Assembly: GCA_947172415.1 (NCBI GenBank)
Contig: OX359189.1
Coordinates: 8,446,501 to 8,510,500, forward strand
Source of the DNA: Chondrosia reniformis
Lineage: Eukaryota > Porifera > Demospongiae > Chondrillida > Chondrillidae
Direction of reading: 5' to 3'
Length of the DNA: 64,000 nucleotides
The stretch's first letter is position 1; each line of letters starts with the position of its first letter. Positions 5,105 to 43,030 of the stretch are shown one piece after another. Both the position numbers and the translations under genes were made by a program. Below the pieces are notes generated by a model. That model saw nothing but the letters and a program-made list of their open reading frames with translations, had not been told where the DNA came from and ran no database searches.

Positions 5105-5296
5105 CTTCAGATCAATCGACTTTTTCTCCTCACAGTGAGAACACTTGGCTTGCTTACAAGTCTCACAGGCCTGATGTCCACAGTAATAGACAGCCACTAC
5201 TGGTCTGCTTGACTTGAAACAATTCTGACACAAGTGAGCAGTGCAGGATTTGGCACATTTCTTGCAAAAAATTTTCTTCTCTTTCTTAGGAAGTGG
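5105..5296 (-). pseudogene. Orphan RING2 exon
   Basis: A 192-nt open exon with acceptor TAG before CCACTTCCT and donor AAG/GTACAA, the same length and phase as the exons at 1966-2157 and 37622-37813. It encodes CKKC, then CQNC, CGHQACETC and CSHC, a complete C3HC4 finger. No partner exons are near in this orientation, so it is an exon fragment left by duplication. The intact frame suggests a recent copy or continued exchange with the other copies. Confidence 0.7.
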
Positions 5297-5534: not shown

Positions 5535-5700
5535 CTAAAGCTATTATTAGAGCTGATCTCATTGGCGGCATTGTGGGAGGAGTGGCAGTTCTAATAATAG
5601 CTTTAGTAATAATTGTGGTCATTTTAATGATCCTCTATAAAATGGTAGGTAATAGAAGCTACCTTTTCCTGTTTATGCTCCAACATGCATGGCTGCTTCC
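5535..5700 (+). pseudogene. Inverted transmembrane exon fragment
   Basis: On the plus strand this reads DLIGGIVGGVAVLI, a hydrophobic run, then YKMVGNRS, clearly the TM exon of the receptors at 2.96-3.08 and 38.65-38.83 kb, but in the opposite orientation. A 21-bp inverted repeat (attactaaagctattattag at the left, its complement about 60 nt on) folds back inside the exon. The exon therefore took part in a local inversion or foldback event. Confidence 0.7.
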
Positions 5701-20797: not shown

Positions 20798-23104
20798 TTA
20801 TGATGGGAATAAAAGGGATTGTCTAAGATTATACATTCTATAAATAAAATTAATGACTTTTGTATTGTCTGAGGTTAAAAGATATTGTAATTTAGTGGAG
20901 GGAGGCATACATGTAAAATTGGGATTAAGATTGGTACAGTAGGTAAATAAATCTTTTCTTATAATATTAAGTTTACAACAATCAAGCAAAAAATGTGCTT
21001 GGTCCTCCACCTCACCCCCAGCACAGACCTGACATGTCCTCTGATCAAATGGGATGGAGGTGTAACGACCAACTTCGACTGCAAGGGGAAGGCAACCAGT
21101 ACGTAGACCAGCGATGACTCGTCTCCTGCCTTTGTCACATCTCATTATATAACTATCTACCTTGGGAGCAAATTTTATCTTACGGTAAAGATTTAATCTA
21201 CCACCAGAACTGGAGTTATAAGGGATTCTATTAATATTTTGATACCAGAGTAAATCATAATTAACACAGATACTTTGGGTGGTAAGATGTACAATAGAGT
21301 TAAGATCAAGTGTTGCAGGGGGGGAGTATTGGGGCCAGTAGCTAGAAAACAAATTATTTACAGAGCTAACCCAATTATGGGTGCCTTGCTCGGCCAATCT
21401 ACATGCTTCAATAAAAACTGCTTTTGTGATACGATTATTATGTAGGGTGTGTAGTCTTTTCCAAAATTTAATACATGTGATTTTTGTCAGACATGATATA
21501 GGTTTCCAACCCATCTCCCCTATTAAAGCGTCAAGAGGTACATTCCGATTAAGTCCTAAGAAGTTTCTAATTAGTTTAAACTGTATTTTGTTAACCTGAT
21601 CATAGGACTTAAATCCCCATAAAAAGGAGCTATAATTAATGACTGGTAAGATTAGACTTTCATATATTTTACTGTATACATTGTAGTTAAAATTACCTGA
21701 GGTCCTAGATTTACAGATTAAAAGGCTGGCAGCTCTACTGGCTGAGATAGAGGTTGCTTCAATTGTAGCCTTCAGACTAAGGTGCTCAGTAAATATGACA
21801 CCTAGGTACTTGTATTTATCAGTGTAAGTAATATAAGCATTACAGCATTTAAATATTTTTGAGTCTAGTGGTTTTCTATTGTTTCTGAAATGCACTGTTT
21901 TAGTTTTATCAGGGTTTATAGACAAATTCCATAAGTTACAATAAGAGGTAAGAGAATTTAACTTATTCTGTAGGATTCTAGGAGAGTCTGCTATGATAAC
22001 TAAATCATCTGCATATAGTAGAGCATCGATCTTTATATTACCAAAGCTAATTGGGGCATTTACTTCCCTGAGGGAAACCGGTAGATCATTGATATAAATG
22101 TTAAATAGAGTGGGGGACAAAACACATCCTTGCTTAACACCTGTATTAACTTGGAACCAATCAGTGGTACCATTTTCAGTACATACTGCATATTGTGTGT
22201 TAGAATAAAGTCTACGGATAGAACTGAGAAAAAGGCCATTGATACCTATATTGTTTAATTTTGACCATAATTTCTCTCTTGGTATAGAGTCAAAGGCTTT
22301 TTTAAAGTCAACAAAACAAGCAAATGTATCTTTTTTCCTTGACTTTCGATTTTCAATAATGCTAAAAAGAGAAAATATTTGGTCTTGACAGCTTCTATTT
22401 TTCCTAAATCCACCTTGCTCTTCACATAGTAGATCATTAGAATCCAAGTATGCTGTAAGACGATTATTCAGGATTTTACAATAGCACTTAGTAATACAAG
22501 ATTGTACTGCTATTCCTCTGTAATTATTTGTGTCATATTTATTTCCAATACCCTTGTATATGGGTGTCAGTGAGCTATAGTACCATTCATCTGGTATCAA
22601 TGATTTCTTAAAACAGAGATTAAATAGTTTATGTAGATATTTAAGAGTATTAATGTTTTTAAGTGTACTAGGGCCTAGACCATCTGGACCTGCCGCTTTT
22701 TTATCTTTTAGAGAGTAAACTGCATCAGTGACTTCTTCTAAGGAGATTTCCCTATTCAAGTACGGTTCCCATTGGGTCTGATTATTGTTAGTTTGTAGTG
22801 TCTGTACCAAATCATTAGCCATTGTAACTAACTCTTGATTAGGCTGCTGTTGGTAAGGGGGGTTTAGTAAGTTCTTAAAGTAGTTATACCAGATATCTTT
22901 TATTTCTTGAGGATCAGATGTTAATGTACCATTAGCATTTAAAAGTGATCTTGGCAGGGTATTTTTTTCTGGGGTGCTAGTGATACTAATTTTATCAAAT
23001 AGTTTCCAAAATTTCTGTGAATTGCCCATGCTTAAATGATTTACTAGGTTTAAATTCATTCTATTTTGATACTTTCTTTTTTTCATGTCTGACCAGGGTG
23101 TCAA
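20798..23104 (-). CDS. LINE reverse transcriptase ORF
   Basis: An open frame of 768 codons. RT landmarks are in order: KAAGPDG near residue 136, QGGFRKNRSCQDQ near 230, FVDFKKAFDS near 264, GVKQGCVLSP near 322, the catalytic YADD near 364-367, NPDKTKTV near 397 and YKYLG near 436. Near residues 690-715 the C-terminus has a CxxC...HxxxxC motif (TCQVC, then HFLLDC), common in LINE ORF2 proteins. The catalytic triad looks intact, but the element is 5'-truncated and frameshifted from its endonuclease, so it is not expected to move by itself. The initial Met is only the first one after the shift. Confidence 0.9.
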   Translation of the reverse strand: MTPWSDMKKRKYQNRMNLNLVNHLSMGNSQKFWKLFDKISITSTPEKNTLPRSLLNANGTLTSDPQEIKDIWYNYFKNLLNPPYQQQPNQELVTMANDLVQTLQTNNNQTQWEPYLNREISLEEVTDAVYSLKDKKAAGPDGLGPSTLKNINTLKYLHKLFNLCFKKSLIPDEWYYSSLTPIYKGIGNKYDTNNYRGIAVQSCITKCYCKILNNRLTAYLDSNDLLCEEQGGFRKNRSCQDQIFSLFSIIENRKSRKKDTFACFVDFKKAFDSIPREKLWSKLNNIGINGLFLSSIRRLYSNTQYAVCTENGTTDWFQVNTGVKQGCVLSPTLFNIYINDLPVSLREVNAPISFGNIKIDALLYADDLVIIADSPRILQNKLNSLTSYCNLWNLSINPDKTKTVHFRNNRKPLDSKIFKCCNAYITYTDKYKYLGVIFTEHLSLKATIEATSISASRAASLLICKSRTSGNFNYNVYSKIYESLILPVINYSSFLWGFKSYDQVNKIQFKLIRNFLGLNRNVPLDALIGEMGWKPISCLTKITCIKFWKRLHTLHNNRITKAVFIEACRLAEQGTHNWVSSVNNLFSSYWPQYSPPATLDLNSIVHLTTQSICVNYDLLWYQNINRIPYNSSSGGRLNLYRKIKFAPKVDSYIMRCDKGRRRVIAGLRTGCLPLAVEVGRYTSIPFDQRTCQVCAGGEVEDQAHFLLDCCKLNIIRKDLFTYCTNLNPNFTCMPPSTKLQYLLTSDNTKVINFIYRMYNLRQSLLFPS

Positions 23105-24035
23105 AAACTTTTTGTTTATTTCTAAATATTCGCCATAATTGTAGCCTAATTGGGTCAGATCTATTACAGGCCAGCCACTTTTTCTGAGCCTCCTTCAACT
23201 CTTTTCTACAGATGGACAAATCACTATTCCACCAAGGTTTGGGGGATGGGCCGTAACGTCTTGTATTATTAGGGCTTTGACCGTCGACTTCAGACTTGAT
23301 GATATTACAGAATGTACTAAAATTTTTATTAAGCTTAGTAGGGTTTGGTTCTGAGGAGATAGTTTCAAGTTCTGTAATAAGTGTATCTATAGTATTAGTG
23401 GCTTCCGGGGTTGATAGACAAGTCTTTGATGGAGCACAGTGATAGGTACGTCTATGTCTATAGGTTAGTCTAGACTCATCTTTTCTTGAATAAAATTGTT
23501 GGGCATTGTATGTAGAATCAATTAAATATTTCCATGTAAGAAGGGAGTGATCAGGTGCATTAGAGTCGTATGGTAAATTTAATTCCTCAACTAAATCTAG
23601 TACAGTGTGTACTTCAAAGTTTGAGAAATAAGCCAGAGTGGACTGGGGGACAATTACATAATCTACTACTGCCCTACCAAGTGTTGATATACTGGTAAAA
23701 TTGTTATACTTGGGGTCAGATCTACCATTAAGCATGATCATGTGTGAATCTAATAACAGATCAATAAACTGCCGCCCGTGGGAGTTCACCACGGAGTCAA
23801 CTACCTGCCTCTTAGGGAGGTGGGGCATGTCTGTATCACTCAGGTTGCCGGTCCTAGCATTAAAATCCCCGCATATAATAAGGTCACCAAGGGGGTAAAA
23901 AAGCATTATTTGAGTTCTTAGGGTCTCAAAAAATTCTACAGATGAGTCTCCACGGCTAGAGCCTGATGGTGGCAAATAACAGGCACACAGGCAGAAGGAA
24001 TTACTGGAGTTAATATGGTTAAAGGACAACCACAA
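23061..24035 (-). pseudogene. LINE endonuclease C-terminal fragment, frameshifted
   Basis: A 324-codon frame in the exonuclease-endonuclease-phosphatase family. It holds the GDFNARTG segment and a DHSLL stretch near residue 165, the metal-binding Asp-His region. The N-terminal third of the domain, with the Glu/Asn catalytic motifs, is absent. The frame runs past the RT junction and stops at 23061, where the RT frame has already opened. Confidence 0.8.
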
Positions 24036-24059
24036 GATGCCTTCATAACTATTATTGAG

Positions 24060-24700
24060 GATAGAGGATTATATGTATCCTACATAGACATTCAGACGTA
24101 TAGTCTATAGACGTATACTGCCCCTGCATCGGTAATAGCTATTTGACTAACGAACGCAAAGTACAAATTATATATTATGTATAATACATAAATAGTTAAT
24201 AGTTCTGCTTTACCCACGCAGGAGCTTTATAACACAAGCATGCAGCTGCAGATTCGCATGTTTCCACGACCGTGCACAGTTATACATAATACGTTGAGAA
24301 ACGATGCATTTACTTGTGGCGTATGCAAGCTTATATAATTAAGGTCTTTTAATGTAACCTACCAGCAAAATTCCGGGTCCTTCACACGTGCTCGATCTAG
24401 CTACGTATACGTACACACCCAGTTCACGTACAAGTCATAAATTCATATTACGCATGCGCATGCACGGAGCATTTTGATTGGTCCAATTGCAAATGCCATA
24501 ATTTATGGCATATATATGCAATTATATTTTCAAGGATGCCTATATATTATATAAGTATCCTTGAAAATATGACCACATAAATATCGTGAAATAATTAATG
24601 CTGATCATTTCATGCAAACAAACTAGCTAGTTTTACAAAAATACAAATGTTAGCATGATACCAATTAAAAAAAACTGATGACCAACATATAAGCAGCACT
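24060..24700. other. Spacer between LINE and receptor 3' end
   Basis: AT-rich, no open frame of note. ctatatattatataag near 24540 sits between inverse copies of tccttgaaaata (about 24530 and 24560), a small palindrome. The receptor transcript from the right should end here. Confidence 0.4.
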
Positions 24701-24706
24701 TGAAGA

Positions 24707-27700
24707 TTAGGGAAGCAATTTTTCCTTTTCTCCAAAAGATGAAGGGCTTTCATCAGCATCAGTACATTCCGGTATTTGTGTCTGTATAGTAGAAAATTAG
24801 CAGTATAAAGATAAAGGTTGGTAGCAAAAATCTACATAATATACATGAATGAAGAGAAATTCTACTATGTTATTTGTCTATCTTTATTCCATTTCAAATT
24901 TAGTATTATATATGCATGCATCTTTTAGGAAAACATATGGATTAGATCAGTTCTGCTTGACTGAATGTTGGTTTAAATTCATAATATATATACTGATTCA
25001 GAAGTATCATAGCCTTACATCACCCTCAGAAAGTAAAACTCCAGGCTTTAGAAAGACATTAAAAATACCGTAAATCTTCTAAAAATTCGTGAACTTTTGA
25101 GACTTTTCAATTCTTACTTTTCGAAGTTTAGGAGGAAATATGCGCTTCTTCGTTCGCGTCTTGTGAAAATTAGAGTTTCGAATTTTTAGAAGATTTACGG
25201 TAAATTAGCCCATTTTCTTGCATAAGGTATTTAGCAATTTCAATTTAATTTTGGGAGCACACAATTGCAACTTAGCAATAATTGCCTTCTCACACAGGGG
25301 CAAATAGACATATTATGTACTACATACATTCACACATACTTGCAACTCAGCAATTGTGTAGTTACAGTTACTGCTATTCACAGGGAAGCTTAAGTTCAAA
25401 TCTGCTTGATACGCATCCAATTGACACTAAATAGAAATCTAAACAATTAATGCTTGACTGAATGTTAGTTTAAATTCATATACTGTATTATCACAATCTT
25501 ACAATAATTTCTATCACCTTCAGAAAGCCCACTGATCATGATTTAATATAGTGATTATTATACATATATAATATTTTTAACACACTAAGACAACATGCAT
25601 ATAAAATTTACATATGTACCTATGGGGTCCATACAAAATATTAAATCATTGATTTTGACATAAACAGTATAATACAAACAAACAAAAATGTAGCAAACAA
25701 CGTATGCACATTGCATTGTATACAGACCTTACGCAATGGATCATTGGAATGTTCCATATCTTCACTCCTTGAAAAGATCTATTATATATACATGTATATG
25801 CCAATTCTATAAGTGCTTTTCTAGAATACATGTACATAAGAGCTCCTAATGAGTAATCAAAAAATGTACATAATGTTACAAGGTGCTCTTGGTATATCTA
25901 GCATAGGGAACAAGTTTCATTAAACACATAACTAATTATGCATCATTGCTACAGCATTCAAGTAGCCTGGGATCAAAATGGCTAAAAAGAAGTTCATGAA
26001 ATTTACTTTGAGGCCTAGGATTTAAGAAATTGCTGGTAATTAAGAAAACAAACATGTTAAATTTACTTCACTTCTTGATTAATGCTGTATATTCTATTAA
26101 TCAGGAATCACATATCATATTGTATATGATAGATAATTCCCCCATTATCTGCCATAGCAATTAGGTATACGTATCTTTATATATATAAGACAAGGGTAGC
26201 AACTGGAAGTATATAAAAATAAAACAATACAGGCAGCCCCACAGCTGTATACCAGATTGACAGAATAAAGAAAGTAACTGGTACTCATCACAAATCTATA
26301 GGTCTATAACTAATATGAGCTAATGACGCTAATTTGTCAGCTACAAAATAAAAAGGGAGTAAATATCAAAATGTTTAAGTTACTTTAAAATGGTGGCATG
26401 TTACATGTCACATAATCCCACACATACGTACATACATGGTACTCACTTTTATACCAATAAATTTCTTTTCATTACACTGAGAACATCCTCTTTCACTGCA
26501 CAATTTACAGACTTGATGTCCGCACTTGCATACTGCTACTACAGGTCTGTCCTGTATGTAGCAGCACTGACACAAGTGGACTTGGCACTTCATACAAAAA
26601 CTCTTCTCTTTCGCTTGCTATATACAGCACAAATGTATTTAAATATGCCATAAAATGTTATGTTAAAGTACTGATTCGCTGCTATAAACCTACCTTAAAT
26701 TTCAAAGTCACTGGAACACCAAGCGTTTCACTACATATTGGACATTGCTTATGATCATTGGTGCAAGTTGAACAGAAGGAATGACCACAGGTAAATATGA
26801 CTTCTCTCAAATCCCGATTACACTCCTGACAGTACAGGTCATTTGATGGGCATCCATTAGATGCTGTACAACAGCTACAGGTCTATAAAAATGTCTTGTA
26901 AATGCATACATAGCCATGCCTGACATTATAGAGTACTATGAATGGTTATGTATTATATTCAGCAAATATTTAGTTAGCTTGTAAAAATCATATATACAGT
27001 ACATTACCTTCCACCTCACTCCAATTCAAATAATTAATCCAATTTGTATAGCATGTCACAATAATAAACAATCATTATTTGACAAAAAAGGAATTAGTCA
27101 GGCTACAGATAAATACATAGACATATTACAAGTTACTGTAATTTGGGAAATTGTCGTTAAAATACTTTTGTGGTTGCCCCCAAACCACGAAAATATTTTA
27201 AAAAATTTTCCCATGAACATTTCCCGAATTACGGTAATCTAATAGCATACTTGTGGATTGTAAAATTATTGCATCATCATTTTGACTATACCTCAGTATA
27301 TATGGTTTCAAAATTTTCATTAGGAATGTTTCTAGGGGAGAGGGAGGGGAGATTCCTGTGAAAGTTTAGTTCTGCATAAGTTGTTGTAGACTCTTGCTGA
27401 TTTATCTTTGACATTTTTTGGGATTTCTAAAGAGTGACCAGGACATTAAATACTTAATTACTATATTTTCAATGCATTATGGACTTACTGTTTTAGCTCT
27501 GTTCTTTTTTCTGCTACGATAACAACAGATTGAAAGAACAATCACACACAATATTGCAACTCCTACAAATATTCCCAACACACTCCCTAATGGCTTGGAT
27601 AAATCAACTGTTAGTGCTTGACTAGGAGCTTCTGAAAGTGCAGAATATCATATAAGATGTTAATAACAGTTTATATTGATATAATACATTGTATAGCTTA

Positions 27701-28587
27701 CCAAAAGTTGGGTCTTAACATACGTACGGATATATGTAAATCAGGCTTACCATTTTCTTCTTCTGTATTTGAGGATAAAGTAGTTACATACATTACTGCT
27801 GGTTCACTTCTAATTGATCTGTTTTTTGCAAGTGCAGTGATGGAAATTATATACTGTGTTTCTGGTGGCAATCCATCAAACTTGAAGGAAGTTTTTTCTG
27901 TATAGTAATTCTTAGATACTATATTATTTTTAATGTTACATTCATACTCAATTCTATTAAAACAGCCTTTTATTATCAATGATGTCCAATTACAAACTAT
28001 GAAATTAATAGAGACATCATCTTCAAGGATAAAAGGTGAACTGGGCATTTCTGTCGCAAAGAGAAAAAAGAAAGCCTAATATCAGTAACGATACAAAATA
28101 CTCATATAACATACGTATGCAAGCTGATGATTATTTAGTACCTACTAGCAGTGATTTCTTGAAATTTCACTTAATTACATTTTCTATTGTACTTATACAC
28201 TGTATGTAAATATGTTAGAATTGAACTATATTTATATATATTAATTTTGTATATGAACGTATAAATGCTCACCTGGTGGATCTAAAGTAATGTTGTTACT
28301 ATAGACTCTTACAACAGTGTCAGTACTTGTGTTAACAGTAAAACATCTGTAATTGTACACTTTATACTCAAATTCTTCCCTGGTCACATTGATAGTCAGA
28401 GTAGTAGTAGTTGGAGTAGGATCATCTCCATCATGATTAAGAGTAGACTGAGGATTAAATCCAGTTCCATTTCTCTCCCATCTAACATTAGTATCAGCAT
28501 CAAGTACGGGATGTGTACATGTTAACTTGTAGGTTTGACCGAAACAAGGAGGACTTGATGAATTAGTGAGTGTAACAGTAGCTTCAC
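24707..28587 (-). CDS. Ig-FN3-TM receptor with ITSM-like motifs and tandem RING fingers (5' incomplete)
   Basis: Exons in transcript order: Ig 28273-28587; FN3 27750-28050; TM 27489-27631; tyrosine-motif tail 27292-27426; RING1 26694-26882; RING2 26447-26617; a possible 27-nt exon 25733-25759; 25340-25426; last exon 24707-24781 ending KEKLLP and stop. Ectodomain joints are phase 1 and tail joints phase 0. The TM helix is GIFVGVAILCVIVLSICC. The tail has TTTYAELNF and TIYTE. RING1 has C-x2-C-x10-C-x-H-x2-C-x2-C-x6-C-x2-C (CQEC, CGHSFCSTC, CPIC). RING2 has the same order with x12 and x4 spacers (CQCC, CGHQVCKLC, CSQC). Both match C3HC4 fingers of E3 ubiquitin ligases; ligase activity is inferred. 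No signal-peptide exon was found upstream. A MITE sits in the intron after the tail exon and another near the 3' end. Confidence 0.75.
25066..25202. mobile_element. Small MITE in a receptor intron
   Basis: About 137 bp. ACCGTAAATCTTCTAAAAAT at the left is mirrored in inverse complement at the right (about 24-bp arms), with TA at both outer edges. It lies in the intron before the last exon of the 24.7-28.6 kb receptor. Confidence 0.85.
27133..27237. mobile_element. Small MITE in a receptor intron
   Basis: About 105 bp. Left TTACTGTAATTTGGGAAAT and right ATTTCCCGAATTACGGTAA are inverse complements with two mismatches. A second inner inverted pair (cgttaaaatact.../...aaatatttt) surrounds ccccaaacc. 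It lies in the intron between the tyrosine-motif exon and RING1. Confidence 0.8.
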
Positions 28588-29189
28588 CTATAATAATAAT
28601 ACTAATATGGAATAATTAAATCAAATCTAAATCACATTAGCATAAGTCTTGGAAATTTAATGGAATACTGGTTGTAAAAGAAGACCTTTTCATGTAGATC
28701 TTGAATGTCTATATGTCTCCCTCTCTCTCTCTATCTATCTATATACATACGTACATGTATCAGGTATGCATACATACGTACGTATATATGTAATGCATGA
28801 ATTACATGTACGTATATACGTACATACTAACATACATGTGCAATATTAGTGTAAATGCTGTTACTTTGTAAAGCTGCTGCCATTATTACACAAAATGACA
28901 ATCTCAATACTTTATGTTCAGGGATATTCATGCCTTGTGCTTGGCGCACAGGTCCTACATTGACAAGGAAGATGGGATTACTACAGTAATGGTGGTAGAT
29001 TTTATCATTGTCTTAGTTAACACCCCACTAAACATTTTTGGTGCCAAAATTGTGTATATAAGACCCTAAGATTTAACATAGAGAGCAAAGGATTCACAGA
29101 AGATAAAGAAAAAGACAGATTCCAAGGGTCACTGATGAAAGGTGGAATTCCCAGAAACAGCTATCTGGCCCAGTGGAGAAGAAAAAGAA

Positions 29190-29740
29190 GAAGAGAAGAC
29201 TCCTATATCTTCATCCAAAGCTCTCTCCAGGCTTAGATCCCTATAGGCTATAATTCATTACAAGTAGGCAAATGCATGTAAGAAAATGGTATACTAGATT
29301 ATTCATACGTAGGCTTGCAATGTATAAGGACTGCTTCTTATTATTATTCATATGTACGTGGATTGTGCATAAGTGTCTGAATATAAGCTTGTCAGGTATA
29401 ACATATGTAGTTACACAGGAGCTGAATCCTGTTAACTCTGACATGTCAATGGAGAAGAGAAGAAAGTGTCAGTAATAGTCCTTTAGTTATATCATAAGTC
29501 TCGGAAAATTGCATGCTTTAGTCTATACACTGTAAATGAATTAGTGGAAATTATATTTAGCTGTACATGTTCAGAAGATCAAGATAAAGAAAAAGACAAA
29601 GACAAAGAAGGGAAAAGAAGGAAGAAAAGACTACTGTATCTTCATCTAAAGCTCTCTTTAGGTTTAGTTCCCCTATAGGCTCTTTTTACAGAATAGGCAT
29701 ATAGCATGTAGGAAAATGGTATCTTAGATTTTTCATGTGA
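29190..29740. repeat. Two copies of a dispersed repeat
   Basis: Positions 29105-29310 and 29580-29740 share aagataaagaaaaagacaga-like A/G-rich starts, cttcatc(c/t)aaagctctct, ccctataggct and a shared end near ttagattnttcat. The right half recurs at 48210-48300 (ggtttagttcccctataggc). Confidence 0.7.
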
Positions 29741-30404
29741 TGGCAAATTTCCATGATAAACAACCTCAAATTTTAACGATTTATAATGAAATTTAGCATA
29801 CATAGCTTTTAGCATCTTAAGTGCAAACTTTTATGCAAGTATATAATGTACCTACGTACATACGTATGTTGCAAGGTGACATACTTTTTGTGTCTATGCT
29901 AGTAAGCACTGAAACAGGTCTATGTATATAGTTTGATAATTTAATATGGTGACATTTTTAAAATGAAAAATACAATAAAATACCTAATAATTTCTACTTG
30001 TAGATTTTCATAGCCTCTTAGACATTTAAATAATATCTATATACGTAGAATAAAATAGTGCTTGAAATTTTTAATATACTAGAAATATTAAAAATGTTCT
30101 ACAAAAATAGTGAAGATGTATAGGGATGGTGCAAAAAGTACAGAAACAGGAAAGGGATGTTACACAGTGAAACATTAGCTGTGCATGAATCATACAAGCA
30201 AGGGTGTTGCAACATATCCCTACATCTAGTAGCAATTTGTGCAGTGTCTACTCTTATTCTTCCCATGTACGTACATAGGTATATATATATCCAATATGAG
30301 CCAGTAAATATGCATGTGTAACAAAATTGTTGCTTCTATGTCCTACTTCCTAGGCTAAACATTTAATTGAAAATTAAGAGTTGTGATTTTAACAATCATT
30401 CAGT

Positions 30405-30505
30405 TATCCATAATGGTGACTTTTCAATTATCCATAATGGTGATTTTTCAATTATCCATAATGGTGACTTTTCAATTATCCATAAGGTGACTTTCAATTA
30501 TAAGA
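30405..30505. repeat. Four tandem repeats, unit about 24 bp
   Basis: Units built on caattatccataatggtgac, four copies, the last shortened. Simple minisatellite. Confidence 0.9.
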
Positions 30506-30950
30506 ACTTAGTCTTTAAGTTTAATTGGTTTCCAAACTGCATTAACAGCAGTACACAATTAAAGGTTTAGGAATTTAAGGTAGGTAATTCTTAGAAGAGC
30601 TAAATCAATTTCAACCTCTATTCAGTATAGGAAACAATTAGCATTTGTATGGGAATCTATTAGCTATATCTATTAGCAGGATGGCTATACTGGATAGCTA
30701 TGTATACCCATTTTCGCCTAAAAGAGTTCATGTTGCACAACAATTGACCATTACTAGGTACATAATGTATAGTCTTCCTTATATATAACAGTGTAATTCA
30801 ATTTGGTAATGTATTTTCAGTTAAAAATGTCAATATTTTATAAGTAGAGTTTTTCTTAGATGTACAACCTTTTATATCCAATATGTACATAGTGCAAAAC
30901 ATTTGATAGATAAGTTTATTGGAGCTATTTGCAACAAAAATCGAGCTAGA

Positions 30951-30985
30951 TTGAACATTTCGACCCGTAGGTCTCCATCAGCAAT
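30951..30985 (-). ncRNA. Hammerhead-ribozyme-like motif (arm of foldback)
   Basis: Minus strand reads AUUG-CUGAUGG-A-GACC-UACG-GGUC-GAAA-UGUU-CAAU. Stem II (GACC/GGUC) and the short stem I (AUUG/CAAU) pair. The last A of CUGAUGA is changed to G and the cleavage region to UGUU, so it is probably inactive. Confidence 0.45.
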
Positions 30986-31823
30986 TATGAGGAAAGGCAT
31001 TAATATGGACCAAGGCATGTCACTCTGGAATGATATATAATCAATTAACACTAGAAATTCATTTTTGGGGCGCCGTAGGGGCCCCTATATTGTTTTCAAA
31101 AATTATGTTAACGTATGGCTTCCTGTTCGTAACCTTGTATATATCTGTCACCAAAATGGCGGACGCTCGGCTGGCTTTCGTTTTCTAGCTTAAAACTAGC
31201 TTTCTCTTCCTTTGCGTCGAACGTTGAACCAACGAAAAGGATTTAGAAACCACCTATACTAATACTATGTAACGTAAAGCTTGCGCAAAAACGTTTACTA
31301 CGAGATATGGCCTTGAAAAATTGACGCCAACAAGAGTCGACCGGAAATCGTTTAACCGGATATCTATGAGAACCAGCCAAGTAGTTTGAGTATACTTAGG
31401 GGCGCCTGGCGCCCCACGAGTTTTTATTTGCCGATTTTTCATTTGCCGATTACGGGTTCATACGCAACTGTTATAACACTTATTTTATACGTCGATATAT
31501 GTATAATACGAGTTCATACGTAACTATTGTTACACTTAATTTATACGTCAATACATCGTTTTTGCAAATGGCGGCGTTCAGGAAGCTTAAGCTTTTCCAT
31601 CGTTATTTATAAATTTCAGGACACTTAAGCGTCCTCAATCGTTAGTATTACGAATATATATATTAAATCCCAACGATGCGGCCAAGTAGTTCGAGTTAAT
31701 TCGGGGGGCGCCCCACGAGTTTTTAAACTCGAAATCCTTTTTTTTATTATTTTGGCGTTTTATTCAATTTTAAGCTCCTGCCCCTTTTTTTATTTAAACC
31801 AACTGCTGAAATCCTTTCCTCAT

Positions 31824-31860
31824 TATTGCTGATGAAGACCTACGGGTCGAAACATTCAAT
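31824..31860 (+). ncRNA. Hammerhead-ribozyme-like motif (arm of foldback)
   Basis: AUUG-CUGAUGA-A-GACC-UACG-GGUC-GAAA-CAUU-CAAU. All conserved core bases CUGAUGA and GAAA are present. Stem II is 4 bp with a UACG loop and stem I 4 bp next to the core. Stem III is minimal and disrupted (ACAU). Similar minimal hammerheads are known from Penelope-like elements. Confidence 0.5.
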
Positions 31861-31909
31861 CTAGCTCAATTTTCATTGTAGATAGCTCCAATAAACTTAT
31901 CTATCATAA

Positions 31910-32870
31910 TGAATGCAACTAAAATTACTCCCTATCACTTTATATGTACATATGTACGTATGTTTGAAGAGTTTTGTAATTATACCTAGATACATCCATA
32001 GCAGAGCACAGTAGTACTCTCAGCAAAGGACTCATAAAACGTGCATGGTAATCATTTTATAACAGCAGCAGTACTGAAACCTGTTTAACTAGCAGGACTC
32101 TTCAAAATCTTTAGCTAATGAAGGAACTTAGTGTGAAATTGCATATCATGTGTGAGTGTTAGATATCACTTGAGTTTACCTATTTCCCAAAAGACCAGCG
32201 AGACTTACACTTAAATAAAATCATTAATAAACTTGACTGCAAAGAAAACTGGTGTACATGGCTAGTTATTATGCGTTTCCGTTATTCCGTGCTCCGTGTT
32301 CCGGAATTCGCTCCGGTTCTGCGATTTAGAGAGACCCTTTCAATTTGTAGGTACTTTCACACTACTCTTTGTTTTTTATCGCATTCACATTTCATACATT
32401 CATATAAGTCAAGTAAAGAGATTTGCTATTTACAGTAATTGCATATTGAATTACATACAATTATACTACAATTCAATATGCAGTATATAATTATTCTTCC
32501 TTATCAAGATAATCATCCATTACTTTCATGCTTCCCTCTAATGTATATCCTAGGGCTCTGCATGATATAAATAGTACCGTAAAGGTACAATTGTATGCAT
32601 GTGAAACATTGATGAGATTTTTGAAAATTTGGCCTCTAAATAAACAAATTTAATATGCACTTTTTATGTGTTTTTGTCTATCAAGCTTAAGAAACATCTC
32701 CACTCAAAAGAAAAGCTTTCTAGGTTTAAGAATCTCATTACGTCACGAGTCTGGACTAATAATAAATTTTTACAAAGTAAGCAGATCGAAGTGACAATTT
32801 CGACTTACTCAAAAATGGCCGCATCAACATTACTGCCGATTCAATCATACAATCTGAAAACCTAATTATA
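31910..32870. other. Intergenic, no gene seen
   Basis: No reliable coding signal. gtgctccgtgttccggaatt near 32290 is a locally GC-richer island without an assigned role. Confidence 0.4.
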
Positions 32871-32884
32871 TCAGCACTATATTA

Positions 32885-33105
32885 TCGTACTACTACTACT
32901 ACTCGATCGGCATACTTCGCATTATAACCCCAACATCATGCAGCTGGCTTCAGATGAGGGGATAATTTTATTTTGTCTGCCACCACATACAACCCATCTC
33001 TTGCAACCCCTTGATAATGGGGCCTTTTCTTCAAAGTAAAGAGTAAGTTATCACTGAGAAATGGTGTCCAATTTTAGAGGGTGTCCAAATTTGATTTTCA
33101 CACCT
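32885..33105 (+). pseudogene. pogo/Tigger-type transposase relic
   Basis: From about 32952 the plus strand reads DEGIILFCLPPHTTHLLQP followed by LDNGAFSSK. The LPPHTTHLLQPLD segment is diagnostic of the DDE-type endonuclease domain of pogo/Tigger and CENP-B-like transposases. Only this short piece survives. It runs into a 70-bp segment (33035-33105) also found at 20345-20415, probably the terminal region of the same family. Confidence 0.75.
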
Positions 33106-33109
33106 ATAT

Positions 33110-34370
33110 ATATCAATTTATAACTTACTTGATATGCTTCTGCAAAAAATGTGCTGAAATCTGAGTATTGGAACTGTTCTGTTCGCAAAGATGTAGAATC
33201 TATGATCAAACATTTTGAAAATTTTAAGACAACCCTTCACTGAAATATAACAGAGAAGATACTGAGAATGCCAAGAATCAAAAGAAAATAAAGAGACATA
33301 TATATAACATAATACGCAAAAATAAATATCTAAAAAATAGGAATACACTCTGCCCAAGTTGATCACAATTTACAAGGTCATTAAAAGCCATCTGCAAGTT
33401 CTTAATAGCTGCAAAGTAATATATATAACTGTCGAAGTTCATCAGACAAAGGCTCCCGTAGGAAGCCGAAACGTTTGAACAAATCTTTGTGACTTTCGGC
33501 TAGTGTTTCCACGAACTTCGACAAGTATCTTCCTAGCCATTCAGGCCTTTATCGTATATATAACTGTCAGCAGTAGTGTTTATTTACCTAGGGTGCCAGC
33601 TGGGATCACCAAATATGTAACTGCAGCTTTTGTGCAGCTAAATGTTACTTTCTGGGAGCTACTGTTGGTTGGATTTCCTACAATTTACCTTCCTAGGAAA
33701 TCCTACAGCTGTGCTCTCTAGCTAAGTGGATGGTATTTATATACCTACTTGTCACTAACAATGATTGATTATGTATCTTCAACATGTGACCAGAAGGTAC
33801 TTACCCTAGCTTGCACCAAATTACACAAATGGTGATATATGTATATCTAGACAAAATTTACATTTATATATCTAGACAAGTTATGTTTGCCTTCATGCAA
33901 TATCTTTATAAAAATTAAAGTGGCCGTTACTTATTGAATGCATTCTGCTTGTTCCGGTAGGACACCCGTGAATAATAATGATTCATACACATTATAGTAT
34001 TTAAGGGGAGACAGAGTATAATACTCCCACATGCTTTTAATGCACATACGTATACCCACTCATTATTTGAGATTTTAATCATAAGTTGTAATTTTCGATT
34101 ACCAATACTCTTATTATAATTAATCTTAATCTAGTCAGATTCATACTAAGTATACAATAATTATACATTTAAATGCTTGAAGTCTGGTGCTAAATCTAAG
34201 GTTATTACAAACAGTACAGTACAGCAGGTCTATCAACTTTAGACTTACCCAGTCAGATTTAAGTTTAAACATACTTGTATGCTCTAACAGGATGATGCAA
34301 CTCACCTAACTAATTATATATAATGAGTTTATGTGTAAGGAATCCCTATAAGTATATAACAATTACGTAC
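33110..34370. other. Intergenic, no gene seen
   Basis: No supported gene. 33435-33525 contains an inverted pair around cgaagttc...gaacttcg flanking aggctcccgtaggaagccgaaacg, a small hairpin. Confidence 0.4.
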
Positions 34371-34371
34371 A

Positions 34372-35223
34372 GTGGAACCTGCCTAATGCGGTCACCCAAG
34401 GGAGACCAACTTGCTGGCTGTAATACACAGGTGGCAAGGTTTCATTAATATTCATTGACAAAACACAAATTTGCATAATTGTTATACAAAGATACGTTTT
34501 CAGGCACGCATCTTAAAATCAACTTCAGCAGAACGAAAAATACTGTATACTTAAGGTGTTAAGGTATTAGTTATTACTTGACCGCCAAAATAACATCGAA
34601 TTCATTATAATGTTCGTACCCGCTATGCGTATACACTTCATTCACAAAAACTTAACACGTCCAGGATCAAAACACCAGACCAGGAAAGCTTAATTCGTTA
34701 TAAACAAATTTTACCAAGATTCGTCCCTAACATTTCGTTATAAACCGAAGGTTTTATGTTGTTTAAAACCGTTTTTTTCAAAACGTTTCGTTACAACCGA
34801 AATTTCGTTAAATCCGTGTTCGTTATAAACGTGTTCCACTGTAGTTTTACAGAATACAAGATACATGATCATGGCGTTGGTCTCGGGCTGGAAGTTCCAT
34901 GTTTTTATCATTTCGATGGACGCCAGAACTTTATAAGAAAGCTGCAAGAGTCACTGAAGGAGTAAAAGAGACTCTTTAGAACATTTTATGGATAAATTGT
35001 TGTCATTTACTTACTTTCAAATCTGTATGGCCGCATTACAGAGTAGAGAAATCCCTTCGGGGCCACGGAAAGGCGACCGCTATACGCATTACGCAGGTGA
35101 CCGCATTAATAAGGTCTCGATGTATACTTCAATATGGCGGATTGTTCAGGAGTATAAGTTGGCGACCGGAAAAGCGAGGTGACCGCTTTAATAAGGTGAC
35201 CGCTTACTCAGGTTCCACTGTAC
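34372..35223. mobile_element. pogo/Tigger-like MITE
   Basis: The ends TACAGTGGAACCTG and CAGGTTCCACTGTA are perfect inverted repeats including TA. aggtgaccgcttta near the right and gcggtcacc near the left extend the arms. The interior has no transposase. A second internal gtgttccactgta at about 34830-34843 suggests a nested or composite copy. Confidence 0.8.
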
Positions 35224-35595
35224 CTATACATAATACCTTTCCTAATAGCACAGAAGCTGTACAAGGTCAAGCTATAGATATATACGTCATTAATATTATT
35301 ATTATTTATATAAAAGTAAATAGAATGTACGTATATACATTTTATATAATTGTTAATACTCTAAAACACATCACCCCTTTGGCAACATACTTTCTTCATT
35401 TTGGAGTATTATACAAACTACTGTTAAGAAATATTATAAACATACATACATTTATAGAATATTTCTCTAGTTATTACTATGCAGACAATGACCTAACACA
35501 GTGTTTTTAATTCCTTGTCTACATTTGCAAAGTATAATAGGCAATTGTTTCTTATAATACTGGTAGGTGTATGTATATGTGTACATATAGCGACT

Positions 35596-35690
35596 AATCC
35601 AGAGGTATAGCATGCTGATGAAGACCTACGGGTTGAAACGTCCTATTATCAATAATTTATGTTGCTGTTGCTCAATAATACCTCTGGATT
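35596..35690 (+). ncRNA. Hammerhead-ribozyme-like foldback
   Basis: The outer arms AATCCAGAGGTAT and ATACCTCTGGATT pair perfectly. Inside is CUGAUGA-A-GACC-UACG-GGUU-GAAA-CGUC. The core bases are complete, stem II keeps pairing through G-U, and the self-complementary ACGU fits the dimer-type stem III described for minimal hammerheads. Stem I next to the core is poorly paired. Confidence 0.5.
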
Positions 35691-35699
35691 AAATCATGA

Positions 35700-37350
35700 T
35701 CGCAACAAACAATCCTTATCACTTCATATAGCGAGTATAATACCATAAGTGCTAAACCAAAAAATTAATGTCTTAAGTATTAATGCACTAATCAATGAGT
35801 GGGCAGGGGTAATATCCAGAGTTCAATGGTGATGAAAACTGGGTTGTCTTTATAATAACAATAATAAACCATTATAACAAATTAATAAACTGTACCATTA
35901 GCGATCGATTATATCTTTTGTATATATATTCGCACTCAAGCAGTATCTATTCAGACATTCGTTCACGAACTATACCTTTTACATGTCTTCTTGTGATTCT
36001 TGATTGAAGTGGTTCAATGAAGTTACAAAATATTTCACCATTCACCAAATACTACTTCAAATACACGGTACATGGCTAATCTACATCGCAACCGTATCTA
36101 GCCTGGTAAATATCTAAATGGGCCGGGAAAGTCTGGATTAGTAAACGCAGATAAGACGCAAAATTAAATGAAATCAGATGCGCGTGTTATAGTTGACAAG
36201 ATCTTTTATGTGGGACAGTATATTGGACGGATATAATATATACATGCCTCTTTTCCTTTGAGTTATACATAATATAGACCAGATTTTAAGATACATTAAC
36301 ATATCTGTGCTATATGCAAAACTGTATTAACAACACATGCTTTGGTTTATATCTTCAAACTTCTCCATGAATTTAAAAAATACGTATAAACTATTCTACA
36401 ATTATAATTTGGATAGCATCTATGTAATATATAGTTTAGCAAATTAGACTATTAGTCAAAAATGCATAAAACTAATTAATACATCCAAGTATATAGATTT
36501 ATATGAAGTGGTTAGTGTGTACAATTTTGTTGCACATGATTGTCATGTATATACAAGTTTATTAAAGCATGCCTATAATTAATTTTAGCATAGACTATAT
36601 AATAAAGTTAAATTTAAATATATATCAGGATTTGTTATAATTGGACTTGTGATCAAAAGGTGCATGTAATTGTAAGCCAAACATTGTATACTACAATAAG
36701 TCTATTAATATACAGCTGCATCTATCTCATAATATATATATAGTTCACACAAAGGATGAATTCATGTATGAAGTGGCATTTTATAAACTTTGCTTCAGTT
36801 TTTTCACTGCATTAAGAGGCGAGAATATTTTTAAATGTATACATTGACCCACACGTGCACACACACCCAATACAGTACAGTACAGTATACTTGTATATAC
36901 AGAATATTAAGGATTGCAAACATCTATGCATGCTATATATCTTTGAGATGGTTTGTCTTTAGTTATTTGAGTGACTGATCTCAAAAGACTATTTCACAAA
37001 ATCCATTCCAAATCCATTCCAAAAATGTAAAGGTTCTCAGTTAATAACCGCTATAACAGATTTGATGCTTACATATGTACCTTGTAAATGGTAGGGAGCC
37101 ATGTATACTTCATGACTGACTCAAACATACGTATGACATGGCTACTGGGTTATAGACCAATTTATAACTTGCACACATGGGTATAAAAAGCTGAAGCCTT
37201 AATTTAATGTAAAAACCTTCATTGTACGTATATATATACAAGTTACAACATGGTCCATACTTGTGTTTGAAAGAAGTCAAACTTCATGGTCTTACACAGC
37301 TCCCTCTCAATTGAAAGTTATGTACATATGGTGATTTATTGAACATTGAC
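35700..37350. other. Spacer downstream of the 37.6 kb receptor
   Basis: Any last exons of the minus-strand receptor should lie here, but none could be recognised. The sequence is AT-rich without supported genes. Confidence 0.4.
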
Positions 37351-37354
37351 AATA

Positions 37355-37565
37355 TATACTTGTTGAATCAATAATCAGAATACTTATCAAATACGGGAGG
37401 AAAACTGCTCACTAGTTAAACAGGGAGGTGTTGATGTGAATATACAGATGTGCATGAGTGATGTCAACACCTCCCTATTTAACTAGTGAGCAGTTTTCCT
37501 GCCTTTATACGCTAGTGGAAACCTCCCAATCAATTAAGCATCCTGATTATTGATTCAATATATGT
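37355..37565. mobile_element. Large nested foldback element
   Basis: An inner pair of about 38 bp (aggaaaactgctcactagtt at about 37390 and its complement ending near 37500) has one or two mismatches. An outer pair is ttgaatcaataatcag / ctgattattgattcaat. The loop holds tatacagatgtgcatgagt. It sits about 55 bp past the end of the RING2 exon at 37622, in the downstream intron or 3' region. Confidence 0.85.
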
Positions 37566-37621
37566 GGCGCTGATACTCAGTATCATACATGTGTATAATA
37601 TTATATATAATACATACATAC

Positions 37622-40018
37622 CTTCATTTCAATAAACTTTTTCTCCTCGCAATGCGAACACTTGGCTTGCTTGCAAGTCTCACAGACCTGATGTCCACAG
37701 TAATAGACAGCCACTACTGGTCTGCTTGCCTTAAAGCAATTCTGACACAAGTGAGCAATGCAGGATTTGGCACATTTCTTGCAAAAATTCTTCTTCTCTA
37801 TTTTAGGAAGTGGCTATATATATATAAATATATAGCATGTTACAGCTAATATAAGTATATACGTATAATATCATTTTTATATGCGGCCACAAAATTAAAT
37901 GTATATAGCTCCATAAGCATGCAAAAAATCAATAGAATTAAAGATCTACGTATACGTATATGCTTTAAATTTATAGAGCCACAAATTATAAGAATGGGTG
38001 TTGATTGTACATGCTTATGACTCAAAAAGCAAAATTGTGTATTTTTATATATACATATATATATACAAGAGCTATAAATTAACAAGTCCATCATAAGATA
38101 TAATATGTAAATATATCTTCATACTTCTATAATTAAAGGTATGATGTCATTGGGCTTTGCCTGACAATGAGGACAGATCTCCAGTTTATCAGAGCACTTG
38201 GAACAGAACTGGTGTCCACAAGAGAATACACTGTCCTTAGGCTTAGAGGAATCACATCCTTGACAGAGCATGGACTTGTCTTTTGTGATGCACCCTTTGG
38301 AACAACATCTACACGGCTTCATATGGTGCAAAGACTTAACATAGCAAGAACAGGAACATGCTTAGTACATTTGTAACACTTACCTCTGCATATAGGACAT
38401 CCTCATTAGAGTCTTTCTGTTTGCTAGTGGCAGTACCAAGACTTGACTCATTAGGTTCTTCATTCTTGGAGAAGTCAATAGTTGCATATGCTATGTCTGC
38501 TGTGGCTGGCTTCTCTTTCTCCATAGCAATGGAAGCAACTGGAGTATCTGGTACACCAATTCTTAAACTCTACCATAATCACAAAAGTAAAGGTTTATTT
38601 ATACATTAGCTCTATATTCCAGTTTCAAACAAGGTTTGACTTATGTACTTTCTCAAGGTCTGGTGAGAAGGATCCACTGTTTCTATTAGCTACCATTTTA
38701 TAGATGATCATTACAATGACTGCAAATACTATAATTAGAACTGTAACTCCTCCCACAATGCCGCCAATGAGACCAGCTGAACTTGATCCTCCGCTGTCTC
38801 CAATACTTCCTTTTGTCACCATGTTTTCATCTACCATGTGTAGCCAAATGCACAGTATTTATACGTACGTATATATATGTACATCAAAATATGGTAGTTT
38901 GTTGAAGCAAAGATACGTCCATGTTTGAACATACTAGACACATGCATGGATAATATTTGTGCATGTAAATACACATGCTTACTTTCTTCTCTGATAACAT
39001 TTGTTGTGGCAGGTTCACTTCTAAGCTTGCCACTCACAGCAGTTACATATACACTAATTGTGTCATTTGAAGTAAGCTCCATAATTGTAGCATTTATTAA
39101 ATAGCTAGCAGCAGTGAAATAACTTTCAGATATTTTCAGTTCTGATAATGTCTGATTATTACTATTTTTTACAATTATCTCGTAAGATACATTGGTAAAG
39201 CATATAGCATCATGTGTCCAGGAGCAGGTGATCAAACCACTTTTGATCTCACAGCATTCCAATCCATGAGGTTGTTCTGGTTTATCTGTCCAAAGTCACA
39301 AGTTAAATATAATTATGTTTCTTATGTAGCTATTTTAAGATATATACACAAAATATATTCAAAGCTTTTCCTTTGAAAACAATCTCTGTTTACTTCCACT
39401 GCATGACAACATGTTCGAACAGTTTCTGGACTTGTAGTTGAGGATTTGACGGCCTCTCTATGAAGTAGATTGGAAATGGTATTATGGACTGACTATTAAT
39501 ACAGTCAGTAGTAATATTAATGTCAAAACCACAAATAAAATCACTCACCAGGTGGACCTACAGTGATGTCATTACTGTACACTCTTACAACAGTGTCAGT
39601 ACTTGTGTTAAGGGTGAGACACCTGTAATTGTACACTATATTCTCAAACTCTTCTCTGGTCACATTGATAGTCAGAGTAGTAATGGATGGATTTGGGTTG
39701 TCATCATTGATATGATTAGGAAAAGATTCAGGATTAAATCCAGTTCCATTTCTCTCCCATCTAACATTAGTATCAGCATCAAGTACAGGATGTGTACATG
39801 TTAACTTGTAGGTTTGACCAAAACAAGGAGGACTTGATGGAGCAGTGAGTGTAACAGTAGCTTCAATTATAGTGGAAACTATATATGTATATGAACAACA
39901 ATCAACATGTAAAGGAAAAAATCATTTGAAGTGACTATATTTTAAAGTACTTACCATTTGCTACTGCCAGCCAGAGGACAATCAACCAAGAGAAACCTTT
40001 TATAGGATATGTTGCCAT
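37622..40018 (-). CDS. Ig-FN3-TM receptor with ITIM-like motif and tandem RING fingers (3' end open)
   Basis: Exons in transcript order: signal peptide 39955-40018; Ig 39549-39878; FN3 38983-39285; TM 38649-38830; tail 38380-38569; RING1 38125-38334; RING2 37622-37813. Start MATYPIKGFSWLIVLWLAVA is a clear signal peptide, and its 64-nt phase-1 exon matches that of the 16.7 kb receptor. The TM segment is GGIVGGVTVLIIVFAVIVMI. The tail has DIAYATIDF (fits the ITIM form IxYxxI) and DVLYAE at the splice. RING1 reads CQGC-x11-CGHQFCSKC-x6-CPHC; RING2 reads CQNC-x12-CGHQVCETC-x4-CSHC; both are complete C3HC4 sets. An extra CxxC (CKKC) precedes RING2. Reading past the RING2 donor gives a stop after seven codons. 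If expressed as modelled, this is a surface receptor carrying its own RING E3-type module; substrate and ligand are unknown. Confidence 0.8.
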
Positions 40019-41900: not shown

Positions 41901-41919
41901 TGTTTATAACTAAATTTAC

Positions 41920-43030
41920 CTTAAATTCAACAAAAATCTTATCTCCACAATGAGAATTTTTCTTACATGTATCACAGACCTGATGTCCACAGTAATAGAC
42001 AGCCGCTACTGGTCTCTCAGGTTTGAAACAGTTTTGACAATGTTGAATAGTGCAGGATTTGGCACATTTCTTACAAATGTGTTCTCTTTCTCAGGAAGTG
42101 GCTGAAAAGGTCAAAAAGTGTATCATTTTCAAAAACATTTAGGTTTACTTGAAGAATTATATATGTATAATAATATTATATATAGTACAAATTTGCAAAG
42201 ATGGTACGTATATATATATACGTATATATGCGTAATGTATTATAATGTATAATATCCTTGGTATAATGCACATCACAATGAATTTTATATTCACATATAT
42301 TCATGTGAGTCTTAATACATTGTTCTCATTGCAAGTATATTGTTAATTGAACTATCTACAATAATTTAAGGATTCAGACGTTTTGACCTGTATGTACGTC
42401 TTCATCAGCATTGTATATACCATCTGTACGTGTGCATATTGCATATGAACTAGGGGAATTGATCATGAGCCGTGCAAAGACTATGATAATATATATATAA
42501 GCAAAATAATCACTGCTTGGAATTAGACCACCTAAAAAGGTAGTTGGTTTAGTCTCCAGTGGACTCTTATTTGTCTCTGTGCCTGTATGTAAGTATAGAA
42601 TTTTAAGGCAGTTACTCTGATGGTTCTATATATTATATAAAAGTTACAGTCAATTACATATAGTTACCTGATTTTTCAATAATAACATACACCTGTTATA
42701 TGTACATTGTACCTTTAGTTTTTATACGTAGATATGTTAGTAACTACAGCTGGTTGACTTCTTTTAGCTCCATCCACTGCCATTACAAATATTAAATTTA
42801 GTATTTTTGTCATCTAGTTTTCTATCTGATTCAGAAACATTATTTTCAATTTTCACTCGATTGATGAAGCTAGTTTCAGGTGTTGTTTCATTACACATTG
42901 TTATCCCTCCATCAGCCATCATGGTGCGCCCAAACATGGAAGTGATGTGTCTTGTTAAGTTACTGAAATTTGAGGCAGTACATATTCCATTTGTGTATTG
43001 TTAGCCTTATTATATGATCATTGTCTTGTT
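41920..43030 (-). pseudogene. Decayed receptor copy (FN3 and RING2 remnants)
   Basis: 41920-42101 matches the RING2 exon but is 182 rather than 192 nt, so the start is out of frame. The finger reads CQNC and CGHQVCDTC but its CSHC has become NSHC, losing one ligand. About 42712-43030 holds broken FN3-like sequence (FINRVKIENNVS, then in another frame VMAVDGAKRSQPAVVT). No TM, tail or RING1 exon remains between them; a hammerhead-like element lies there instead. Length change, ligand loss and frame breaks all indicate a dead copy. Confidence 0.7.
42371..42413 (-). ncRNA. Degenerate hammerhead-like motif
   Basis: Minus strand CUGAUGA-A-GAC...GUC-AAAA-CGUC. The conserved G of GAAA is lost and stem II is altered. 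A diverged member of the family. Confidence 0.35.

Follow-up and report, generated by a model that had tools for sequence, protein, structure and literature searches.

The window analysed here is a stretch of 64,000 nucleotides from the sponge Chondrosia reniformis (OX359189.1, positions 8446501-8510500; contig C1), in which two minus-strand genes, A (28931-26447) and B (40018-37622), appear to encode membrane receptors with RING-type tails. Each model runs from a signal peptide through an immunoglobulin (Ig) domain, an FN3 domain, a transmembrane (TM) segment and a tyrosine-motif (TYR) exon to two fingers, RING1 and RING2. The chains are 440 (A) and 483 (B) residues long and are open at the 3' end. 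Both genes contain six introns, all with GT-AG boundaries and in phases 1,1,1,0,0,0. Ig, FN3, TM, tyrosine exon and two Cys/His fingers in this order and in matching splice phase had been anticipated in an original prediction made from the window, and this arrangement is found in both models. The models were built from minus-strand open reading frames (ORFs) with splice sites picked by eye at homologous positions, so that some freedom is left. The exons rest on the DNA sequence, and models of membrane anchoring cover A, B and a third gene that lies outside the window. The genome searched comprises 117,379,552 bases in 15 contigs, with 10,409,357 bases in C1. The accessible part of the genome report gives a size of 117.37 Mb, a set of 14 chromosomes together with the mitochondrial genome, a longest scaffold of 10.41 Mb and OX359189.1 as chromosome 1 (PMC12181767).

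The least certain exon of gene A is that of the signal peptide (28865-28931, phase 0 to 1; MNIPEHKVLRLSFCVIMAAALQ). It has a GT donor in fitting phase and is kept as a candidate because its hydrophobicity is moderate, with no 19-mer reaching 1.6. It falls outside the 5' limit of 28587 given previously for this gene. The Ig exon (28273-28587, phase 1 to 1) has an Ig fold in AlphaFold2 and is followed by the FN3 exon (27751-28050, phase 1 to 1; Pfam fn3 E 0.0034, below cut-off), the TM exon (27489-27631, phase 1 to 0; 19-mer hydropathy 3.07), the tyrosine-motif exon with TTYAEL and IYTE (27292-27426, phase 0 to 0), the RING1 exon (26694-26882, phase 0 to 0; Pfam zf-RING_5 E 0.0025, below cut-off) and the RING2 exon (26447-26617, phase 0 to 0), all on the minus strand. 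A possible tail exon on the same strand (TQIPECTDADESPSSFGEKEKLLP, then a stop; 24707-24781) is 97.3% like the corresponding part of a copy of gene A on contig C11, a comparison of just 74 sites. The two models had been called complete-looking; the end of A at 24707 is this candidate exon, and both models are open at the 3' end.

In gene B, likewise on the minus strand, the signal-peptide exon (MATYPIKGFSWLIVLWLAVAN; 39955-40018, phase 0 to 1) precedes the Ig exon (39549-39878, phase 1 to 1; Pfam ig E 0.0069, below cut-off), the FN3 exon (38983-39285, phase 1 to 1; Pfam fn3 E 0.00075, below cut-off) and the TM exon (38649-38830, phase 1 to 0; hydropathy 3.21). The tyrosine-motif exon (38384-38569, phase 0 to 0) contains IAYATI, which fits the pattern of an immunoreceptor tyrosine-based inhibitory motif (ITIM), and ends with LYAE. 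The RING1 exon (38125-38316, phase 0 to 0) reaches 30.4 bits with zf-C3HC4_3, above cut-off, and the RING2 exon (37622-37813, phase 0 to 0) closes the model. Exon lengths, said to be shared by the two genes, are similar rather than identical (TM 143 versus 182 nt, TYR 135 versus 186 nt, RING2 171 versus 192 nt). The Ig exons of A and B (28587-28273 and 39878-39549) are 87% identical in DNA, and this identity ends at the exon edges with no other A-B DNA match, which points to gene conversion between family members on the scale of single exons.

The third gene (C1:8443071-8439850) lies about 3.4 to 6.7 kb to the left of the window and has the same order of modules plus another Ig-like exon ahead of the TM exon. 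Its introns are GT-AG in phases 1,1,1,1,0,0,0, and its 562-codon frame is uninterrupted and closes with a stop codon directly after RING2. The layout is thus conserved, as had been proposed: order and phases recur in a diverged gene with a closed frame. The TM and tyrosine exons of this gene are not matched by queries from genes A and B, indicating that the layout is older than much of the sequence change. In all three chains there is one strong TM segment apart from the signal peptide, and the fingers lie on its C-terminal side, in a predicted topology of one TM helix followed by a cytosolic RING.

The join between tail and fingers decides whether these modules share one chain. The TM-TYR introns measure 62 (A), 79 (B) and 269 nt (third gene), and the TYR-RING1 introns 409, 67 and 130 nt, respectively, so that in two of the three genes there is little space before RING1 for a separate promoter and first exon. 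Within the 60 nt upstream of RING1 an in-frame stop is present in A, B and the third gene, and no in-frame ATG is found there in A or the third gene. Counting against a single chain is an ATG directly before the RING1 exon of B and likewise of its partial copy G1, where the database homologue P0002 starts; an internal start in the B lineage is therefore possible. It is highly improbable that the RING exons belong to a gene of their own with an independent start, or that the models are artefacts: this ATG and the picking of splice sites by eye speak for it, and against it stand the introns of only 67 nt (B) and 130 nt (third gene) that precede RING1, the lack of such an ATG in A and the third gene, the phases common to three diverged genes and the closed frame of the third. 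A separate RING gene was rejected on the short introns, the common phases and that closed frame. Ectodomain, tail and fingers on one reading frame, as originally predicted, are repeated in the three diverged genes.

The tyrosine exon ends at Y-x-E in all four copies (A, B, third gene and G1). This raises an alternative use of the RING exons, in which an unspliced TYR end would complete a YxxV motif and soon run into a stop, yielding a receptor without RINGs, and splicing would yield the RING receptor. Read-through of the donor adds one (A), 15 (B), four (third gene) or three (G1) residues, with Val first, and then reaches a stop. The Val after the exon-ending codon is, however, imposed by the GT donor, and the YxxV motif alone is therefore no evidence for such use, which we consider conceivable but unlikely.

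Turning to the ectodomain, the Ig exon is predicted to adopt an Ig fold. For an alignment of 20 family members, AlphaFold2 gave a mean predicted local distance difference test (pLDDT) score of 85.0, and Foldseek matched the model to Ig domains of sDscam, SYG-2, MHC class II, SIRP-alpha and PD-1 (best E 3.4e-4). The Ig exons score under the cut-off of the Pfam ig model. The FN3 domain of the third gene reaches 41.7 bits against a Pfam cut-off of 25; those of A and B score under it. No protease-associated (PA) domain is present among the Pfam matches of the three proteins at E up to 1.

Each of the three tails has one motif of the pattern [SIVLT]xYxx[ILV], namely TTYAEL in A, IAYATI in B and TQYAEV in the third gene. 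Their occurrence in all three tails, taken with the YAEV, YDEV and YAEI tails of a RING-less relative in the window, is suggestive. The second tyrosine (IYTE or LYAE), which had also been read as ITIM-like, is not an ITIM because Thr or Pro comes next in the spliced proteins. A weak Pfam match of the TM segment and tail of A to the SHP2-interacting adaptor SIT (E 0.0064, under cut-off) was not used.

For the fingers, the C3HC4 spacing of the eight zinc ligands is kept in five of the six (A, B and third gene). In a genome scan RING1 exceeds the Pfam zf-C3HC4_3 cut-off of 27 in B (30.4 bits) and in the third gene (27.7 bits); A is not among the matches listed. With full-length B, zf-C3HC4_3 is not among the Pfam matches, and the B finger pair with the 15 residues preceding the later splice site scores 27.0 bits. 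A RING1 profile of four sequences searched against the PDB finds BIRC7 best (E 1.1e-7), then MIB1, cIAP and RNF4, with E between 1e-7 and 5e-6. RING1 thus resembles known ubiquitin ligase (E3) RINGs, and RING2 does so more weakly. The earlier claim of two C3HC4 fingers stands as far as the Cys/His spacing in A and B is concerned; confident recognition of RING2 by profile or model does not accompany it. Alignment of RING1 with RING2 gives a score of 113 in B that none of 1000 shuffles reaches (3/1000 in A, 2/1000 in the third gene), and because this similarity goes beyond shuffles, duplication of an exon is the probable origin of the pair. Searches for a recognisable RING donor elsewhere in the genome gave just copies of this RING subgroup at E up to 0.001, and such a donor was therefore rejected. 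A group of ankyrin-type ORFs followed by several RING-like ORFs at C3:9123000-9128000 was read by eye as a ligase of the mind-bomb type that has no relation to the receptors.

In the B lineage, the finger exons show purifying selection. Between B and G1 the ratio of nonsynonymous to synonymous change (dN/dS) is 0.17 for both RING1 (bootstrap 0.06-0.43) and RING2 (0.05-0.56). For RING2 it is 0.18 between B and a second copy, G2 (0.05-0.52), 0.14 between B and a remnant at 41917 (0.06-0.40) and 0.22 between G1 and G2, with limits up to 0.96. In 17 Ig exons the median dN/dS is 0.80 over 117 of 136 pairs, and 32 pairs lie above 1. These 17 come from 23 matches in a 284-kb segment, 20 of which entered the fold alignment; the matches set aside were fragments, one sequence containing a stop and three remote sequences. 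The contrast between RING and Ig values is indicative, since the counts are pairwise and gene conversion is likely in the family.

Building on the order, the open frame, the common splice phases, the Ig fold and the selection on the B-lineage finger exons, we tentatively propose, at somewhat less than even confidence, that A, B and the third gene are single-pass Ig-FN3 receptors with a tyrosine tail and a RING pair on one chain and an output from tail to ubiquitination. The Ig domain would bind a ligand, upon which a kinase would phosphorylate the tyrosine of YAEL, YATI or YAEV and an SH2 protein could dock. Either by itself or together with a partner RING, the finger pair would then recruit a ubiquitin-conjugating enzyme (E2) to the membrane, and ubiquitination of the receptor or its neighbours would end or damp the signal.

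Several observations weigh against this proposal. The RING2 profile gives E values of 0.1-0.5 against the PDB (best a FYVE domain at 0.099; XIAP at 0.31), the Pfam matches of single RING2 exons are all under cut-off (best zf-C3HC4_3, E 5.4e-5, third gene) and the RING2 structure model is poor (pLDDT 59.5, no significant structural match). We take the position C1+2 to be the E2 contact and the residue after the last Cys to be the linchpin of RING E3s. A linchpin Arg or Lys is present in none of the six fingers (S, N, Q, E, S and N instead), position C1+2 is hydrophobic in one (Val, in RING1 of the third gene) and in this last finger Thr takes the place of the sixth zinc ligand. In shuffled tails one ITIM-type motif is reached at frequencies of 0.085 (A), 0.099 (B) and 0.129 (third gene), which is near chance per tail. 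The dS of the fingers is saturated between A and B and between B and the third gene, and purifying selection on the fingers is therefore claimed for the B lineage, not for A or the third gene. A and its C11 copy give a dN/dS of 0.42 (0.12-2.38), with the exons of the copy kept no better than its introns. The A-B Ig pair, at 0.33, has the lowest value of all Ig pairs.

Because the linchpin is absent throughout and the hydrophobic E2 contact is lacking in five fingers, ubiquitin-ligase activity of the pair is doubtful. The original mechanism, in which ligand binding and phosphorylation directly control ubiquitination, finds no support here and is not accepted as it stands, mainly on account of the deviating linchpin, C1+2 and zinc-ligand residues. 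These same residues argue for a single-chain receptor in which the finger pair is a pseudo-RING: folded on zinc and without ligase activity of its own, it would serve as a platform for dimerisation or for the docking of, for instance, a TRAF-like adaptor or an active RING partner. The Pro at C7+1 in all three RING1 and in none of the three RING2 fingers points the same way, and purifying selection is compatible with any folded function. Set against this are the closeness of RING1 to the E3 RINGs of BIRC7, MIB1 and cIAP and the fact that the classical linchpin is absent from some active RINGs. We regard such a platform as a distinct possibility.

Partial and damaged copies bear on whether the RING subgroup is still at work. 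G1 (1966-3065, minus strand) consists of TM (2976-3065), TYR (2755 to about 2862), RING1 (2497 to about 2691) and RING2 (1966-2157) exons, and the sequence upstream of it gave no match to the Ig or FN3 exons of these two genes, A and B. G2 (5105-5296, minus strand) is a RING2 exon without other modules that has a downstream stretch in common with G1, and the diverged RING2 remnant at 41917-42106 (minus strand) has one reported TGA. These copies without ectodomains, the damage in the remnant and in the C11 copy, and the replaced zinc ligand in one finger are what would be expected if the RING exons were relics of an old fusion in a decaying subgroup rather than parts of working receptors. With dN/dS of 0.17-0.18 for B against G1 and G2, and three full frames free of internal stops, we consider decay quite unlikely. 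Beside the RING2 exon of G2, a B-like TM exon lies on the plus strand (5552-5659), a sign of local inversion. The C11 copy (C11:3863965-3867792), on another chromosome, spans gene A from FN3 to past the 3' end with its introns kept. Its origin as a processed retrocopy of spliced RNA was ruled out by these introns, together with its broken FN3 and RING2 and exons that are conserved no better than introns.

The three genes appear to belong to a sponge receptor family that is large, clustered and diversifying, and within it the RING pair marks a small subgroup. The Ig exon of A has at least 150 scored matches in the genome (181 candidates, some of them fragments), and 105 fall in C1:8.30-9.46 Mb, a complex of about 1.1 Mb. 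RING2 of B matches seven places at E up to 0.001 (five in the window, one in the third gene and one on C11) and RING1 of B matches five, which makes RING tails a rare and local feature of the family. A homologue search among 5.8 billion proteins, with a tool of limited sensitivity, returned one match per query, P0001 and P0002; for both, the longest contig is 1,026,913 bases. P0002 is 100% identical to RING1 of G1 over 66 residues. The FN3 part of P0001 is closest to the third gene (81%), and the Ig part matches A (78%), B (85%) and C1:9411695 (83%); of 342 candidate places in the assembly 148 were scored, and none of these is identical to P0001. The simplest reading of these matches is that P0001 and P0002 represent another haplotype of this species that differs in gene content or has strongly diverged alleles, a hint that haplotypes of the complex differ widely. 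According to the accessible part of the genome report, an alternate haplotype has been deposited (PMC12181767).

Two neighbours in the window were recognised by eye. The RING-less relative, at about 16400-13100 on the minus strand, has two Ig-like and two FN3-like ORFs, a TM segment and YAEV, YDEV and YAEI tails followed by a stop. At 20798-24068, also on the minus strand, overlapping ORFs of 798 and 335 residues look like a retroelement without long terminal repeats, with a reverse transcriptase carrying YADD and an endonuclease-like part.

Judged from its sequence, the combination of Ig, FN3, TM, tyrosine tail and two RINGs appears to be a new architecture, a membrane receptor with a RING-type tail on an Ig/ITIM-like base. 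SIRP-alpha, PD-1 and the Siglecs are ITIM-bearing inhibitory receptors of the immunoglobulin superfamily (IgSF), and the first two are among the many Ig chains that Foldseek matches to the sponge Ig model. We know of no RING domain in such inhibitory receptors. A literature search by title and start of the abstract, covering few subscription papers and no preprints, found no paper on Ig, FN3, ITIM and RING on one chain; the originally claimed lack of a described family agrees with this. As far as the accessible parts of the sources go, the LILRB receptors (PMC11999971) share with the sponge genes an Ig ectodomain and one TM segment, and the YxxL/I/V sequences of their tails have a possible counterpart in the sponge motifs, which are near chance per tail; the PA-TM-RING E3s RNF43/ZNRF3 and GRAIL/RNF128 (PMC7291719, PMC10127277) share an extracellular domain, one TM segment and, by the predicted topology, a cytosolic RING. 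These ligases control receptor levels at the membrane, for which the sponge proteins are a proposed equivalent. Unlike in the PA-TM-RING E3s, Ig and FN3 replace PA, there are two C3HC4-type fingers without linchpin, and a tyrosine tail lies between TM and RING. In the accessible text on sponge Ig-TIR receptors (PMC8242945) an extracellular Ig is similarly fused to a cytosolic signalling module, which is TIR where A, B and the third gene carry the tyrosine tail and RINGs. The word RING is absent from the searched texts of PMC8242945 and PMC11999971. The Hydractinia Alr complex, as far as described in the accessible part of PMC11067881, resembles the sponge complex in its clustered IgSF genes, single-pass membrane proteins and many partial gene models; no RING is mentioned there, and the likeness is one of gene layout alone. 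The papers that a search on such recognition returned concern, by their titles, other animals.

With its 105 Ig-exon matches and signs of diversification in 17 exons, the complex is a concrete candidate for a role in immunity or self/non-self recognition in sponges. Immune receptors are normally ubiquitinated by separate ligases, of the Cbl type, that are recruited to phosphorylated tails. If the proposed reading is true, a chain that carries both the tail and the finger pair would offer a shortcut past such a separately recruited ligase. That the complex serves self/non-self recognition, with some receptors having their own ubiquitin-ligase output and splicing at Y-x-E|GT switching between a YxxV tail and a RING-armed tail, is in its entirety unlikely. 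If true, a self/non-self complex with ligase output would combine recognition and target removal in one chain.

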